Of a stretch of 40,623 bases of DNA, positions 21,430-26,864 are shown piece by piece. The stretch is from contig SWDG01000006.1 in the NCBI GenBank assembly GCA_005116965.1, positions 391,963 to 432,585 on the forward strand. The letters run 5' to 3'. Each line of letters starts with the position of its first letter. The stretch's first letter is position 1. The DNA comes from Nitrospira sp. Its GTDB lineage: Bacteria; Nitrospirota; Nitrospiria; Nitrospirales; Nitrospiraceae. A program made the position numbers and the translations under genes. The notes beneath the pieces were generated by a model. It was not told where the DNA came from. It did not search any database and was given only the letters and a program-made list of their open reading frames with translations.

Positions 21430-22410
21430 ATGGATGGATCGGGACGGCATGAACATCGAGATCTTGAGAACACGCCTGTTCTTGATGCCAGGGAAGGGCC
21501 TGCTCCAGAAATCATTGATGTGACGGAGATCGATGATGAGGAAGAGCCGTCGTTTTTTTCCAAGTGGGCATTACCGATCGTCCTCTTTCTCCTGACGGTC
21601 TTTACGACGTTGTGGGCTGGAGCCTACCAAGCCTACCACGGCCCGGTACGAGGCCCTTTGAATTTTCTCCTGGCTTCTCCTGAGACGCTCTGGCGGGGGA
21701 TCCCCTTTGCCGGTGCGCTGCTGTTTATTCTCACCACACACGAGTTGGGGCATTATCTGTTATCCAAGATCCACCGAGTTCCCGCCTCCTTGCCGCTGTT
21801 CATTCCTGGACCGCCGCATTTCATTGGGACGTTCGGTGCCATCATCCGCATGCGTGGTCCGATTCTGAGCCGCCGTGCGCTGTTTGACATCGGCGTCGCT
21901 GGCCCCTTAGCGGGCTTCGTGGTTGCCGTCGTGGCATTGATCGTGGGACTGAATCTGTCCACAGTCGTGGATCGAACCGGCACGTTTGGATTGCAACTCG
22001 GCGAGCCGTTGCTGCTACAGTTCATGGCCTGGGTGATTATCGGGCCGCTCCCGCCGGAGGCAGACGTGGTGCTCCACCCGATCGGCTTCGCCGCCTGGTT
22101 TGGTCTCTTCGTGACCTCGTTGAATCTTCTTCCGATCGGCCAGCTCGATGGCGGGCATGTGGCGTATGCCCTCTGGGGAAGAAGGCAACGGACGATGGCG
22201 CTCGCCTTTCTCCCGATCTTGTTGGCCTTGGGCTTCTTCGGCTGGCCAGGCTGGTTGCTATGGGCGTTCATGGCAGGACTTTGGGGTCTCGGCCATCCCC
22301 CTGTTATCGATCCTCATGTACCATTGGGTCGCAACCGGACCATTGTGGGCTGGATTGCCTTTGTTGTGTTTGTCGTCACCTTTGCACCGGTTCCGTTTTC
22401 CTTTCACTAA
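21430..22410 (+). CDS. M50 (site-2-type) membrane metalloprotease
   Basis: 326 residues with about six to seven hydrophobic segments after an acidic cytosolic start (EIIDVTEIDDEEEP). The zinc motif HELGH (104-108) lies in TM2, and the third ligand is the Asp of NLLPIGQLDGGH (about 235-246), both typical of EGY1/S2P-like proteases that cut substrates within the membrane. It is closely spaced after the HTH-hydrolase gene. The substrate is unknown. Confidence 0.92.
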   Translation: MDGSGRHEHRDLENTPVLDAREGPAPEIIDVTEIDDEEEPSFFSKWALPIVLFLLTVFTTLWAGAYQAYHGPVRGPLNFLLASPETLWRGIPFAGALLFILTTHELGHYLLSKIHRVPASLPLFIPGPPHFIGTFGAIIRMRGPILSRRALFDIGVAGPLAGFVVAVVALIVGLNLSTVVDRTGTFGLQLGEPLLLQFMAWVIIGPLPPEADVVLHPIGFAAWFGLFVTSLNLLPIGQLDGGHVAYALWGRRQRTMALAFLPILLALGFFGWPGWLLWAFMAGLWGLGHPPVIDPHVPLGRNRTIVGWIAFVVFVVTFAPVPFSFH

Positions 22411-22482
22411 TCCGCTTCGTTGCCTCCTCTGTTCTCATTCGCATCGTTCTCCTGATTTTCTTGTTGGTTTCCTCTCGTGATC

Positions 22483-22542
22483 CTACAGGAGAAGAATGTT
22501 ACGGCTGGTGCCCCTACGACCCGTTGTCCGAAATGTCAGCCT
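22483..22542 (+). pseudogene. truncated start of a zinc-ribbon gene (duplicate of 26103 gene)
   Basis: CTACAG, then ATG 22496, then codons for [12 protein letters not shown], match the start of the intact gene at 26103-26109 (VGASTTHCPKCQ), including CTACAG upstream. One base is missing after the ATG, so the ATG frame gives MLRLVPLRP instead. Similarity ends after the first CxxC. The rest of the gene is gone, replaced by 230 bp of unrecognised sequence leading into the integrase remnant. Confidence 0.55.
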
Positions 22543-22770
22543 CCACGTTGCAAGGAGGTGCTGAGGCACACCTTGTTCTGTGCATCGGAGCCAGTCGTTC
22601 CATACGATGGCTGTGCGCAGTTCAAGATCCGAGCCTACTATTCTGCGGGGGCTCGCAATGCACAGGACAAGGTCCGCCCCAACGCCTGTGCGTTCTACTT
22701 GACAGGGCTACAGGCTCAGCGCAAAAATCTGCCGCTCCTATTCCGTATCCTCATGGACTTGGGAAGGGAT

Positions 22771-23079
22771 AACTACTTCGTTATGCCGTCAGCTCCGATT
22801 CGGATCAGACCGGGAGAGGATGGACGGCTGATCGTGCAGCTTCACGAGACGAGCCTTCAACGGGCGGTCAAGGGGGCCGTTCGAAAAGCCGGAGTGGTCA
22901 AGCATGTCGGCTGCCATACCTTCCGGCATACCTTCGCCACTCACCTGCTGGAAGCCGGATACGACATCCGCACGATTCAGGAATTGATGGGACACAAAGA
23001 TGTCAGCACGACCATGATTTACACCCACGTGCTGAACAAGAGAGGCCACGGAGTCCGGAGTCCGATTGATGGACCCTGA
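22771..23079 (+). pseudogene. intI: integron integrase (IntI) remnant, C-terminal part
   Basis: About 102 residues at the end of an open frame starting at 22477 match the IntI C-terminus: [18 protein letters not shown], then [40 protein letters not shown] and a tail VRSPID. The catalytic His and Arg (HTFR), the GH and the nucleophilic Tyr (MIYTH) are kept. The N-terminal domain, the first catalytic Arg and the IntI-specific insert are missing, so it cannot be active. Sequence between 22543 and 22770 is open but unlike any integrase. It is oriented with its 3' end towards the cassettes, the reverse of class 1 integrons. Confidence 0.85.
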
Positions 23080-23080
23080 G

Positions 23081-23103
23081 GGCTTATACAGGCTGTATAA
23101 GCC
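23081..23103. repeat. 23-bp perfect palindrome after intI
   Basis: Arms GGCTTATACAG and CTGTATAAGCC around one central G, 1 bp after the integrase stop. A degenerate relative lies at 23216-23236 and a single half (CGCTTATACGG) near 23182. It could be a terminator (no T-run), a regulator site, or part of the attI region. Confidence 0.7.
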
Positions 23104-23215
23104 GGGAGGCGTTTGGGGCTGGAAGGTTCGGACATGATGAAAATACAGGGTTGTAGGCGAATGGCCGGGGAAAGTGGAAACCGCTTATACGGAAAGACGC
23201 AGTCTGTGTCGGGTG

Positions 23216-23236
23216 GATTATACAGACTCTATAATC
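23216..23236. repeat. 21-bp palindrome related to the one at 23081
   Basis: Arms GATTATACAG and CTCTATAATC around a central A, with one mismatch. The core TTATACAG-N-CTNTATAA is shared with 23081-23103. It ends 3 bp before the core site GTTAGAC where the first cassette joins. Confidence 0.6.
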
Positions 23237-23239
23237 AAT

Positions 23240-23246
23240 GTTAGAC
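23240..23246 (+). other. attI-type core site GTTAGAC
   Basis: GTTAGAC fits the integron recombination core GTTRRRY. It lies 160 bp after the integrase stop and 16 bp before the first cassette gene, whose AAGGAG follows directly. In integrons the crossover falls between G and TT, so the first cassette would start here. Confidence 0.65.
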
Positions 23247-23262
23247 CTCCAAGGAGAACCTC

Positions 23263-23925
23263 GTGGCGCTTGAAGACCGTGTTCGAACTCGGATCGAGGA
23301 TCTCATTCGCGACAGCAATCGCCTATCAGCAGGCAACGACCATGGCCAATCCGTAGACGAACGCCGTCGCGGAGAATGCTCCGCATGGCTTACGTCGGCA
23401 CAGAACGTCGTCCACATAGTCTGCCAATCACCGACCTCTCCATACCGCCAGAAGGCGGATGCCGTCGTAACAAAGAAATGGGGATATGTCATCCACGATG
23501 GTGTTGCCGAATTAAGTGCGGTCCTGACGAATCTGCTTCGGGATGCAGATGCAGGTCTTCTCGCGTTGGTTGCCGATCAAGCTCGGGCAGAGACATTCGA
23601 TAACTTTCTCGATCACGCGGAGGCCTATATCGCTGAGTTACGCAAGAACGAAGCCGGAGTCATTGCAGGAGTCGTTTTTGAGGATTCCCTTCGCCGAGTT
23701 TGCAGGAAGCAGTCGATCGCGGAAAAGGGCATTAAGCTCGATCAATTGATTTCTGAGCTCACTGCCAAAGGAAGTCTCTCGGCTGTCAAGGCCAAGCGAG
23801 CACGGGTGGCGGCTCATGTCAGGACCAAGGCTAGCCACGCTCAGTGGGATGAATTCGATATTTCTGACGTTAAGGCAACCATTGCGTTCTCGCGCGAACT
23901 CGTCGCATCCCATCTCGATGCGTAG
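23263..23925 (+). CDS. HEPN-like cassette gene
   Basis: 220 residues; GTG start 7 bp after AAGGAG. The C-terminal region (about 125-215) has a helical pattern with GVIAGVVFEDSLRRVC, GIKLDQLISEL and VRTKASHAQWDEFD, containing R187-x4-H192, the HEPN RNase motif. The N-terminal half is unrecognised. HEPN proteins often act as RNases or as helpers in toxin-antitoxin and defence systems. The stop TAG directly touches the attC, as is usual in cassettes. A cassette origin is well supported; the activity is inferred. Confidence 0.72.
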   Translation: MALEDRVRTRIEDLIRDSNRLSAGNDHGQSVDERRRGECSAWLTSAQNVVHIVCQSPTSPYRQKADAVVTKKWGYVIHDGVAELSAVLTNLLRDADAGLLALVADQARAETFDNFLDHAEAYIAELRKNEAGVIAGVVFEDSLRRVCRKQSIAEKGIKLDQLISELTAKGSLSAVKAKRARVAAHVRTKASHAQWDEFDISDVKATIAFSRELVASHLDA

Positions 23926-23983
23926 GCCTAACCCTTCGTTCCAGCGGACCGCCTCCGGCGGCCGCTGAACTCAAACTTTAGGC
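23926..23983 (+). other. attC recombination site of cassette 1 (58 nt)
   Basis: Starts GCCTAAC (RYYYAAC type) and ends TTTAGGC (GTTRRRY with G replaced by T). Inside, GTTC-C-AGCGG-A-CCGCC, loop TCC, and GGCGG-CCGCT-GAAC make a long hairpin whose left arm carries two extra unpaired bases (C42 and A48 of the decade), the hallmark by which integrases tell attC strands apart. Confidence 0.82.
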
Positions 23984-24000
23984 GGAAAGATGATTATGCT

Positions 24001-24471
24001 ATGACCGAGCCCCAACCACTATCGGTTCTCCGGGCGAAAGGCTGGTCCGGGGTTCCGTCTTCCCCCGGCGTTTACTGGTGGTACTTTCTACGAACCGAAC
24101 TCGACCGCTTACGGGTAGCCGAATTGTGCGACGTGCCCCGGTTGCAGTTGCGATTCGCGACGGACGGAAAAGTGTGCCTCTATCACGGGATGGCCAACAA
24201 TCTCGCAGAACGTGTGGAATGGCACGCTGCTCAGAAGCTAACGCTAAAGTGTTTGGAGTCGGGCTTACTCTCGACGTTCCGGTTCAGTCTCCTTGCTCTG
24301 AATGACTTCGACTACTTGGGCGGGTCGCCTCAGATCGACGACTTTTTCGACAGCCTTTCGATTAGCTGGCTAGCAGCTAGGACCCGGGACGAGGCCGAGG
24401 CGCTAGAGCGTCTCGAACTTCAGGGTACGTATCATTATCCGCTCAACATACCAGGGCAACAGGAGGCCTGA
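24001..24471 (+). CDS. GIY-YIG-like nuclease-fold protein, cassette gene
   Basis: 156 residues. The GIY-like start SPGVYWWYF (Gly23, Val24, Tyr25) and CLYHGMANNLAERVEWH (YIG-like Tyr61-His62-Gly63, then Arg71 and His75) resemble the GIY-YIG fold. It ends with ALERLELQGTYHYPLNI, similar to the Glu and LNI end of that fold. A nuclease is likely, but the catalytic set is incomplete to the eye. It begins 17 bp after attC1. No attC separates it from the next gene, so the two share a cassette. Confidence 0.6.
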   Translation: MTEPQPLSVLRAKGWSGVPSSPGVYWWYFLRTELDRLRVAELCDVPRLQLRFATDGKVCLYHGMANNLAERVEWHAAQKLTLKCLESGLLSTFRFSLLALNDFDYLGGSPQIDDFFDSLSISWLAARTRDEAEALERLELQGTYHYPLNIPGQQEA

Positions 24472-24570
24472 ACTCGTGGCATTTGTCCGGCATCTGAAGT
24501 CCGCGCGGAGCTTCTACAAATGGCGATTCGTGAAGTCGAGCGCTCGGGCCACATAACCTCAGAGGTCGTC

Positions 24571-25014
24571 ATGAGGCCAAATTGCACCACCGTGTATCTC
24601 GTGTCTTGCGTCAGCCAGAAACGGGAACACGCATGCGCTGCCCGTGACTTGTACGTGTCCGATTTGTTCCTCAAGGCGCGCCGGTTCGCCGAAGCGTCAG
24701 GGTGCCTTTGGTTCATCCTGTCCGCCGTGCATGAATTGGTCGCGCCTGATCAGGTGATTGCGCCCTACGAGCGGACGCTCAACACGATGCGGGCAGTCGA
24801 CCGCCGCGCGTGGGGCGAGCGCGTTGCCGCTCAGCTTGCCGAGGCGGTGTCAGACCTGTCGCGGGTGGTGTTCCTAGCTGGCGAGCGGTATCGTGAATTC
24901 CTCGCCCGGCACCTCGCCAGTCGCGGCGTGGAGGTGTCGGTCCCGATGGAGTGGCTGCGAATTGGCGAGCAGTTGAGTTGGCTGGGGCAGCATTCGCCTC
25001 CGCCCGCTGTGTAG
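24571..25014 (+). CDS. DUF6884-like protein, cassette gene
   Basis: 147 residues from ATG 24571 (AGAGG upstream); an earlier ATG at 24520 would add 17 residues. Pattern: VYLVSCVSQKREHACAARDL, YVSDLFLKARRFAEASG, WFILSAVHELVAPDQVIAPY, then VVFLAGERYREFLA. This fits DUF6884, a family of unknown function with similarity to nucleotide-modifying or defence proteins. It is paired with the GIY-YIG-like gene and closed by attC2. The start choice is uncertain. Confidence 0.65.
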   Translation: MRPNCTTVYLVSCVSQKREHACAARDLYVSDLFLKARRFAEASGCLWFILSAVHELVAPDQVIAPYERTLNTMRAVDRRAWGERVAAQLAEAVSDLSRVVFLAGERYREFLARHLASRGVEVSVPMEWLRIGEQLSWLGQHSPPPAV

Positions 25015-25015
25015 G

Positions 25016-25109
25016 TGCTAACCATGCGCTGCAGCGAACCCGGCCATCGCGCTCCGGTTACAATCCAACGCCCTCGTGGGCCGGGTCGCTGAGCTTGGGC
25101 CGTTTCGGC
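25016..25109 (+). other. attC recombination site of cassette 2 (94 nt)
   Basis: Starts TGCTAAC and ends GTTTCGGC, a worn GTTRRRY. The left arm GCT-G-CAGCGA-A-CCCGGCC pairs with the right arm GGCCGGG-TCGCTG-AGC, leaving an extra G and A unpaired, again the attC signature; the loop is about 30 nt. TTGGGCCG before the end is also typical. The last base changes suggest the site is decaying. Confidence 0.75.
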
Positions 25110-25383
25110 TCCTTCAGGATAACGTCAGAAGGGGAGAGGAAAATAGGGACAAGTTGGTTTTCTAACGGAAGTGCGAGCGGGATGTGGCTTTGAAATGGTG
25201 ACGAGAGAGTTGTGATGATCCAGATGGTGATCTTAAAAGTGCAGTCGGCAATCTGTTGTCGGTCGCGGCGTCAGGAGCATTGGCTTGCAAGACCACACAA
25301 GGATGTTCTACCGGTTCAAAAGAACTGTACAGTTGCCTGCAAGATGAACGAATCCAGTTGGAAAGGGAAGGCTTGATGAATCG
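25110..25383. other. stretch after attC2 without a clear gene
   Basis: A 61-codon open frame (25202-25387) without a start codon gives protein-like sequence (LLSVAASGALACKTTQ), possibly the end of a lost cassette gene. Nothing else was recognised. Confidence 0.3.
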
Positions 25384-25728
25384 CTAAAGACGACGATTCC
25401 TAGTACGTCGAACAGAGCTTCGTGTCCTACTGGACCCGCGAGCTAAGAGCCACTTCTTAAACGACGCTTGGCTTTCACCGGACGGTCTGCCCGCAAGAAG
25501 GCCTTCGATACTGATGTCCTCGTCGAGCTTGTCCCAGTGAATCCCGTGCCCTCTGGCGATCAATCGCCAGTTTTTGCGTTCTACGGGTGTGGCATGAATC
25601 AGGCGAGGAAACCAAGCAAGTGGCACGGACAAGCTCCGCCCATCGCTCAGCTCTACGGTGAGAGTGTCTTCTGTCAGTATCACTGTTTCGGCTACCGGCA
25701 ATGAAATATCAACTGCCGAAGTATTCAT
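25384..25728 (-). CDS. DUF2442 protein
   Basis: 114 residues, usual for the family. The core reads VILTEDTLTVELSDGRSLSV, PLAWFPRLIHATPVERKNW, GIHWDKLDEDISIEGLLAG. DUF2442 proteins commonly pair with DUF4160 proteins in toxin-antitoxin-like operons, and here the gene overlaps the DUF4160 end. It lies antisense to the cassettes. With DUF4160 broken it may persist as an orphan antitoxin. The C-terminal tail (SSRTRSSVRRTRNRRL) is arginine-rich and may be non-native. Confidence 0.85.
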   Translation of the reverse strand: MNTSAVDISLPVAETVILTEDTLTVELSDGRSLSVPLAWFPRLIHATPVERKNWRLIARGHGIHWDKLDEDISIEGLLAGRPSGESQASFKKWLLARGSSRTRSSVRRTRNRRL

Positions 25729-25945
25729 TCCATCCCTCCAGAAGGGTATTCTTGTGCTCGGTCACGCGTGTATGAATCCGAACGATTTCTGGACGTGAAA
25801 ATCCTCCGCTTTCTTGCAATCGAATCGGATCAAGCCAAAACTTTGCCACCTTATCTTGTCGTTCAATGTGGATATGCGACGGTTCATCACGATCGCCCGC
25901 CTAAAAGTAGAACCGATAAGGACCAACCCTCAGAACTGTCGGCAT
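25709..25945 (-). pseudogene. DUF4160 protein with premature stop
   Basis: ATG 25945 opens MPTVLRVGPYRFYF, then TAG at codon 15 (25901-25903), then AGDRDEPSHIHIERQDKVA, KFWLDPIRLQESGGFSRPEI and WNEYFGS, stop at 25709. Apart from the TAG (expected Tyr) it is a full-length 78-residue DUF4160 protein. It overlaps the DUF2442 start by 20 bases. It is a probable toxin inactivated by one base change; suppression of the amber codon or a sequencing error are other options. Confidence 0.8.
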
Positions 25946-25946
25946 A

Positions 25947-25974
25947 AACCTGCACTCACATGAGAGTGCAGGTT
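25947..25974. repeat. 11-bp hairpin upstream of DUF4160
   Basis: AACCTGCACTC and GAGTGCAGGTT around a 6-nt loop, ending 1 bp before the DUF4160 start codon on the minus strand. It could be an operator for autoregulation of the pair or hide the ribosome site. Confidence 0.6.
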
Positions 25975-26102
25975 AGCACGTCTGCTCTTTCAAGCTGAAG
26001 CGATCTGCTACTTCTCTGCGGATCGACTTGTTGGGGTTGAGTGTCTAACTGCTGCACTGTTCTGATGATTTTCTTGTCGGACTCCAGGCGCGGCTCTACA
26101 GT

Positions 26103-26864
26103 GTGGAGATGCTGAGCGTCGGAGCCTCCACCACACATTGTCCAAAATGTCAGGCTGAACGGCTAGATGAGGCGCCGGAGTGTGTCCGATGTGGGATCAT
26201 CTTCGCCAAGTATCGGCCGGATTTTCAGAAAGCGCGTCTTCCCTCACCCTCCTCGTCAATTGCGAGATCTCCATGGCTGCTGACAGCCAAGCAATGGCTG
26301 ATTGAGTCAGACACGACGACCGATTCGATGACGTTCTACGGTCGCGCCGCTCTATTGGTGGTCCTGGTGTGGTGGGGCTGGAAGTTTATCACCACGCCGC
26401 TCGAAACCAATTACACCGGTCAGTCGTTTCTTCACCTGATCAATCTGCCCTTTCATGAAGCGGGACATGTGATGTTCATTCCGTTCGGTAGGTTTATGAC
26501 GATTCTGGGCGGAACGCTCGGCCAGATTCTCATGCCGCTGATCTGTCTTGGGACGTTCCTTGTGAAGACCCGCGATCCCTTCGGGGCTGCGGTGGCCTTG
26601 TGGTGGACGGCGGAAAGCATGATGGATATCGCGCCCTATATCAACGATGCGCGAGCACTTGACCTCATGCTTATCGGGGGAGTAACTGGAAAAGAAACCG
26701 ACGGACATGACTGGAACAACATTCTCACAATGTTGGGCTTATTGGAGTGGGACCATCGGTTAGCTCATCTCACGTACAACGTCGGGATTCTCCTCATGCT
26801 TGGCTCCTTCCTCTGGGGCGGAGCCCTCTTGCTGCGGCACTACCGTCGGCTCTCGCCACACTGA
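26103..26864 (+). CDS. zinc-ribbon membrane protein with HEAGH motif
   Basis: 253 residues from GTG 26103, or 251 from ATG 26109. The N-terminal zinc ribbon has CPKC (THCPKCQ) and CVRCG. There are about four to five membrane segments from residue 80. NLPFHEAGHVMFIPFGR holds an HExxH zinc-metalloprotease motif near a membrane segment, recalling M50 proteases, but no second ligand motif is clear. Its start is duplicated, broken, on the other side of the integron. No partner is identified. Confidence 0.75.
   Translation: MEMLSVGASTTHCPKCQAERLDEAPECVRCGIIFAKYRPDFQKARLPSPSSSIARSPWLLTAKQWLIESDTTTDSMTFYGRAALLVVLVWWGWKFITTPLETNYTGQSFLHLINLPFHEAGHVMFIPFGRFMTILGGTLGQILMPLICLGTFLVKTRDPFGAAVALWWTAESMMDIAPYINDARALDLMLIGGVTGKETDGHDWNNILTMLGLLEWDHRLAHLTYNVGILLMLGSFLWGGALLLRHYRRLSPH

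Follow-up and report, generated by a model that had tools for sequence, protein, structure and literature searches.

Which kind of integron is located at positions 22699-25109 of the stretch of Nitrospira sp. DNA analysed here, and what became of its integrase gene? The stretch as a whole (40,623 nucleotides, hereafter the window) is part of contig 6 of an assembly of 3.73 Mb with 99.2% completeness. The locus is in all probability a chromosomal reverse integron, the integrase of which would have been lost. All elements lie on one strand in the order intI remnant, attI, cassette 1 (one gene) with attC1, and cassette 2 (two genes) with attC2. The 3' end of intI adjoins attI and the gene points in the same direction as the cassettes, as in a reverse integron; a sequence-only reading of this DNA had already described this orientation. 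A long array, which would be expected of a sedentary chromosomal integron, was not found: there are two cassettes, and of 29 relatives' loci, 16 lack the insert at this place. Our interpretation is based on profile scores favouring integron over Xer models, a phylogenetic tree, an attI alignment of seven loci, a covariance model for attC sites, a match to the attC of aacA34, and relatives which either show the same layout or are free of the insert. The following features were assigned:

22699-22728, + strand: putative promoter-like leader of intI (TTGACA, 18 nt, AAAAAT); scan match 10/12, with 2 matches in the stretch versus 0.4 in shuffles
22783-23079, + strand: mini-intI (98 amino acids), in which comparison with relatives shows the first 20 residues of an N-terminal extension fused in frame to the last 78 of IntI; the tail matches TIGR02249
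23082-23102, + strand: attI dyad 1, GCTTATACAGGCTGTATAAGC, common to the attI alignment of seven loci
23215-23246, + strand: attI core, consisting of dyad 2 with a worn L box (23215-23236) and the R box GTTAGAC (23240-23246); similarity among the relatives stops at GTT (23240)
23263-23925, + strand: cassette 1 gene (220 amino acids), without a Pfam family, with a distant resemblance (24-34%) to HEPN/DUF4145 plasmid proteins
23926-23983, + strand: attC1, with R' TTTAGGC and not GTTAGGC; 54.1 bits, E 1.6e-10; fold z -3.4, with none of 200 shuffles folding as well
24001-24471, + strand: first gene of cassette 2, GIY_YIG_2 domain protein (156 amino acids; PF20815, 4.5e-15)
24520-25014, + strand: second gene of cassette 2, DUF6884 protein (164 amino acids; PF21818, 1.4e-50) of the candidate defence family PDC-M57A (PADLOC, 1.8e-41)
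25017-25109, + strand: attC2, worn, with the R' end GTTTCGG; 24.7 bits, E 7.6e-4

The integrase remnant

The open reading frame at 22477-23079 comprises 200 codons, and its residues 101-198 score 132.2 bits against TIGR02249, a model of integron integrases (profile positions 216-313 of 315). This confirms the proposed C-terminus of an IntI, since the same residues showed lower scores with a second integron model (94.8 bits) and with XerA (84.0), XerC (83.5) and XerD (79.7). The score of the remnant falls below the cut-off of TIGR02249, which is set at 265 bits for the whole protein. In a tree of 109 rows, the tail groups with the open-frame integron integrase of genome G420 (100/95), apart from the two Xer proteins of its own genome. 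G420 is the nearest relative with an open integrase frame (83% identity over the tail).

The gene had been read from position 22477, but the most likely start is the ATG at 22783; close relatives have the same protein start or a near form of it. Codons 22477-22782 comprise the leader plus the flank; the leader is probably non-coding, because single-base gaps between close relatives occur there. The TTGACA motif is present in the leaders of four of 14 relatives aligned with the window. The G420 protein has 405 residues when counted from the corresponding start; of these, 307 (residues 21-327) are missing from the remnant by an in-frame deletion, so that the gene does not encode an intact integrase. 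The assumption that the front two thirds had been lost has to be revised accordingly: the leader, the probable start and the first 20 codons are kept, and it is the middle that is deleted. Of the extension, the start alone is kept (79% identity across 38 residues, counting the translated leader as part of the frame; E 5e-14). The integrase search in the own assembly gave no match above the integron integrase cut-off.

Over the 78 codons of the tail, the non-synonymous divergence from G420 (dN) is 0.067 and the synonymous divergence (dS) is near saturation (2.6). On the branch of the window, 7 or 8 non-synonymous versus 26 or 24 synonymous changes were counted with two outgroups, and 6 versus 16 with a third. 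Inspection by eye of ten relatives shows four window-specific changes at conserved positions, three of them invariant and one almost invariant, which appears to be a sign of relaxed constraint. The pattern of changes therefore suggests that the gene probably worked during most of the branch and that constraint has relaxed since.

The attI and attC sites

Behind the intI stop codon lies a block of roughly 160 nt that aligns with six other intI-proximal regions, and the similarity is gone directly after GTT, as would be expected from the insertion of different cassettes. The core site GTTAGAC, as proposed from the sequence, forms the end of this block and cassette 1 starts at its GTT; attI is thus located beside intI, as in an integron. 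Two dyads of the TTATACAG...CTGTATAA type are common to the aligned regions. In the relatives, attI contains the simple site CTAAAC-ATT-GTT, whose arrangement (L-spacer-GTT) presumably resembles attI1. A first look for the dyad pattern revealed it in both copies of the window locus and in one of 33 other loci (L020).

From relatives, 18 integrase loci were fetched, and 18 integrase ends were compared (16 of those loci, one with two ends, plus the window). A GTT core within about 250 nt, after which the sequences diverge, was present at 14 ends; L039, L045, L049 and L051 are without a clear GTT core. In G420 (L273), a long G+C-rich stretch with inverted repeats directly follows the attI GTT, with no plain cassette start.

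For the attC sites, a covariance model was built from 19 sites of 12 related loci in integrase direction, excluding both sites of the window and all plasmid sites. Over the 40,623 bases, attC1 and attC2 rank first and second, both on the + strand, and the third hit reached 14.5 bits. The attC of aacA34, which lies outside the training set, was recovered at 49.2 bits. In a BLAST search, attC1 was 88.9% identical over 54 nt to this aacA34 attC of a class 1 integron (E 1e-10 in 7.3 billion bases), and attC2 showed 77% identity over 74 nt to an unannotated stretch of a Nostoc plasmid. Hence, the cassettes are bounded by attC sites as in an integron, with attC2 worn. Two hairpins, each behind one cassette gene, had been claimed; both hairpins are the best hits of the model, but cassette 2 holds two open reading frames. 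On folding and the covariance model, chance hairpins are rejected for attC1 and nearly so for attC2.

The protein of cassette 1 has no family in Pfam or PADLOC, and its weak matches to HEPN/DUF4145 proteins occurred in 13 of 72,556 plasmid records (best E 1e-4). The GIY-YIG gene had no match in this plasmid collection. Of 295 genomes from the phylum, 11 (its own among them) have a match to the DUF6884 protein.

Comparison with known integrons

Reverse (unusual) integrons, in which intI is transcribed toward attI, are known in Treponema denticola and other Treponema, as described in passages of PMC3607928 and PMC7691350; a passage of the latter gives 1266 bp for the T. denticola-type intI. The loci analysed here resemble them in the direction of intI toward attI and with the cassettes and in the length of intI, and four Treponema IntIs match the profile of the extension. 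Unlike in Treponema, the integrase of the window is internally deleted and distant in the tree, and the array comprises two cassettes. With the class 1 integron (intI1, attI1 and the aacA34 cassette) the locus shares the similarity of attC1 to the aacA34 attC, whereas it differs in integrase direction, in the N-terminal extension and in the position of attI downstream of intI. The layout had been regarded as odd in comparison to class 1-3 integrons; it is indeed reversed, but it is not unusual in the lineage of the window. The search for the element in related genomes, which had been proposed, revealed loci of the same layout.

According to passages of PMC2426708, the IntIs of deltaproteobacterial clade 15 are about 120 residues longer due to a shared gene fusion, as noted in 2008; the likeness to the IntIs considered here is one of length, and the added part is unnamed in these passages. 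In a literature search of limited coverage, no report was found of the extension, of its link to the layout, or of a HARP domain in an integrase or integron. Likewise, no report of reverse integrons in Nitrospirota or of recurrent internal deletion was found, with a coverage so limited that the search for Nitrospira integrase/attC missed PMC9024848. Passages of that publication list two integrase-free attC clusters (CALINs) found by IntegronFinder 2.0 for Nitrospira, both in Ca. N. inopinata. With its attI and the remnant of intI, the locus of the window is more than such a cluster.

Integrase decay in relatives

At four loci (the window, G018:C3, G009:C25 and G354:C28) the start and the end of intI are kept and the middle is gone. 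In three of these four internal deletions, the left break is no more than a few codons behind LIVQL, and the right breaks are all different. The junction is in frame in three; that of G354:C28 is out of frame, and G009:C25 later gained a stop codon.

Among the matches listed from 77 genomes of the genus, at least six full-length open integrases (G085 without extension), at least three full-length broken ones, at least 29 tails (window included) and at least five heads were recognised by eye. Tails were called at E 1e-8 and heads at E 1e-3, one head originating from a separate listing. Integrase decay is thus frequent. This is in line with the literature, in which integrase inactivation appears as common: passages of PMC2426708 report nearly one third of intI genes as pseudogenes, and passages of PMC3108266 43-46% as inactive. 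It was considered whether selection keeps the intI tail, given the excess of tails over heads; this excess is explained equally by selection on the cassettes combined with erosion that proceeds from the upstream side. A spread of the same mini-IntI between genomes was also rejected, as the junction of the window occurs in none of the matches listed from 79 genomes.

Two more eroded integron integrase tails are located on the - strand of the same genome (G000:C6:384132-385939, L054), about 6-8 kb before the window and about 29-31 kb from the remnant. One of them is frameshifted; GTTAG occurs about 225 nt downstream of it, with open reading frames after that.

The N-terminal extension and the integron layout

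A first survey revealed a match above the integron integrase cut-off in four of 59 genomes. Of 395 genomes from the phylum, 107 have a match to the integrase of G018 with an E value of 1e-40 or lower, and 20 of these places were fetched. Ten aligned integrases of the window's kind have in common an N-terminal extension of about 100 residues ahead of the SAM-like domain. The Pfam family HARP matches eight of these ten extensions at E values up to 1 (best 7.8e-4), below the cut-off wherever bits were shown. For a predicted model of the extension (90 residues; predicted local distance difference test, pLDDT, 74), the SMARCAL1 HARP domain was the top row in Foldseek (E 0.095), followed by XPB N-termini. 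The VIA Z values were 7.0 for T4 UvsW, 6.4 for XPB and 4.8 for HARP, with eIF1 (7.2) and CASTOR1 (6.8) scoring alike. A search of PDB with the sequence profile of the extension gave no match. The HARP-like nature of the extension is a lead from these models and not proved. Binding to branched or damaged DNA is a property of HARP domains and of the N-terminal domain of XPB. A full-length integrase model (mean pLDDT 71) was set aside. Among the phylum's integrases without a match to the extension, many still have open frames of 415-520 amino acids (L153-L162), and other N-terminal extensions may exist among these long proteins.

In the scan of named genomes, the best 80 integrase loci were considered. 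The extension was found in six of them: two, at 80 and 90 bits, lie on separate contigs of a single Elusimicrobia genome, and four belong to Treponema (10.7-30 bits); the rest reached at most 1.6 bits. Simple attC scanners picked up numerous long hairpins that arise by chance; orientations were counted with the covariance model instead. In L175, which has the extension, a strict simple scanner gave one site upstream and one downstream, and the covariance model the downstream one only. The model was run on 100 of 108 tabulated loci; those left out (L233, L235-L240 and L242) are all without the extension. Among the 22 loci with the extension, 14 are reverse, none is conventional and 8 are without attC calls, versus 14 reverse, 25 conventional and 39 without calls among the 78 lacking it; a mixed layout did not occur (Fisher p 1.9e-5, the loci being related to one another). 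Among the sources of the training sites, taken in the assumed reverse direction, were 7 of the 14 extension-bearing reverse loci and 2 of the 14 that lack it. If the training loci are removed, 7 reverse and no conventional loci remain with the extension, and 12 and 25 without. Since 14 reverse loci lack the extension, it marks a part of the reverse integrons and not all of them.

In the tree, from which L042 and L187 were omitted due to short matches, the layout changes twice across 51 labelled rows (shuffle average 17.2), and the extension changes eight times. The reverse rows are nearest to the root when the two Xer proteins serve as outgroup, which is long, and the bootstrap is unsettled. 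The approximately unbiased (AU) test did not reject one reverse clade (p 0.14); for the conventional integrons as one clade p was 0.043. For the long outgroup, the unsettled bootstrap and the failure to reject one reverse clade, the claim that the reverse layout is ancestral was dropped.

The insertion spot

The integron lies between an M50-like gene (21430-22410) and a zinc-ribbon gene (26103-26864). In 16 of 29 relatives' loci these genes are about 65-140 nt apart; in most other loci the first gene lies outside the fetched stretch. One further feature outside the integron marks the insertion spot:

22441-22547, + strand: left flank, in which the 5' end of the gene starting at 26103 (zinc-ribbon/M50-like) is present a second time in diverged form (71% and 76% identity in two stretches versus 26054-26161)

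Among those listed, eight other relatives' loci fetched at length show a gap of 1.4-7.8 kb between the flanking genes, with varied restriction, toxin-antitoxin and other genes, named from our own reading of the sequences without a family search. Judged from these sequences, the integron is one among several cargoes found at this spot. The gap (22411-26102) is a cargo hotspot in the relatives (L086-L097), with type I restriction, a cytosine methyltransferase plus a Vsr-like gene, and PIN/AbrB and other toxin-antitoxin-like genes; the cargo is often accompanied by a diverged second copy of the 5' end of the zinc-ribbon gene. Between the integron and the zinc-ribbon gene, a DUF2442 gene is located on the - strand (25384-25728), and an insert present in G010 at the same spot shares 86.5% identity with 25389-26084.

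Origin of the locus and alternative explanations

In a plausible course of events, two cassettes were inserted at attI by an ancestral integrase that carried the N-terminal extension. The SAM-like domain and the larger part of the catalytic domain would later have been lost through the in-frame deletion, and each attC site would have lost part of its R' box. With the middle of the integrase deleted and the R' boxes damaged, the array would therefore no longer be rearrangeable in cis, i.e. it would be frozen. The kept promoter-like leader of intI (22699-22728), the sole candidate seen for a cassette promoter (Pc), is now about 0.5 kb from cassette 1. What is probably left to the locus is therefore the maintenance and expression of three small accessory genes, one or more of which belong to a candidate defence family.

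Some observations do not fit easily. The L box of the attI is worn, attC1 lacks the G of GTT in its R', the R' of attC2 scarcely pairs with its R'', and the folding energy of attC2 is unremarkable (z -1.2, 25 of 200 shuffles as good). Moreover, the few non-synonymous changes in the tail would mean that the decay is recent or weakly shown. The folding of attC2 might be taken, together with the match of Pfam Phage_integrase to the remnant, to mean that the locus consists of a Xer or phage integrase and of chance palindromes or terminators. This is extremely improbable in view of the alignment of attI, the covariance model and the aacA34 match. The identity as Xer or phage integrase is ruled out, as far as sequence can do so, by the profile scores (132 versus 84 bits) and the tree. 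A grouping with such integrases and a rejection of both attC sites by covariance models had been named beforehand as what would speak against an integron, and neither was observed.

It is also unlikely that selection keeps the frame of the 98-residue mini-IntI for the sake of its product, which might, for instance, repress by binding to attI or, as a translated spacer, prevent polarity. The in-frame junctions, the kept leader and probable start, and the open tail frame of the window with its few non-synonymous changes would agree with this, but three of four is weak, G009:C25 gained a stop codon, G354:C28 is out of frame, the tail of the window is altered at the four conserved positions mentioned, and its junction was not found again among the matches listed from 79 genomes. 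Quite unlikely, too, is a decayed integrase tail plus attI which received its cassettes later by a trans-acting integrase and never had an array of its own. The similarity of attC1 to sites from other backgrounds and the two further eroded tails would be consistent with it, as these tails mean that other integrases once acted in the genome; yet cassette 1 begins at the GTT of attI, and the assembly lacks an intact integron integrase. A reverse integron with a deleted integrase thus remains the preferred explanation for the locus.

Significance

A wider proposal would be that reverse integrons, with a HARP-like integrase domain binding branched DNA, are old and widespread, and that divergent integrons derived from them by loss of this domain and a move of attI across intI. 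In the reverse form, intI lies between its own promoter and the cassettes, so an internal deletion would lock the array and put it under the intI promoter; 'lock and express' deletions of this kind would then have been selected repeatedly, the window being one example. We regard this proposal as doubtful.

The locus itself is a fossil of a known kind, and its relatives matter more. The extension was seen solely in reverse or undetermined layouts in the 100 loci searched, which offers a testable difference between the two integron layouts. The apparently independent knock-outs of the integrase provide a set for asking whether, and why, the hosts silence the integrase but keep the cassettes.

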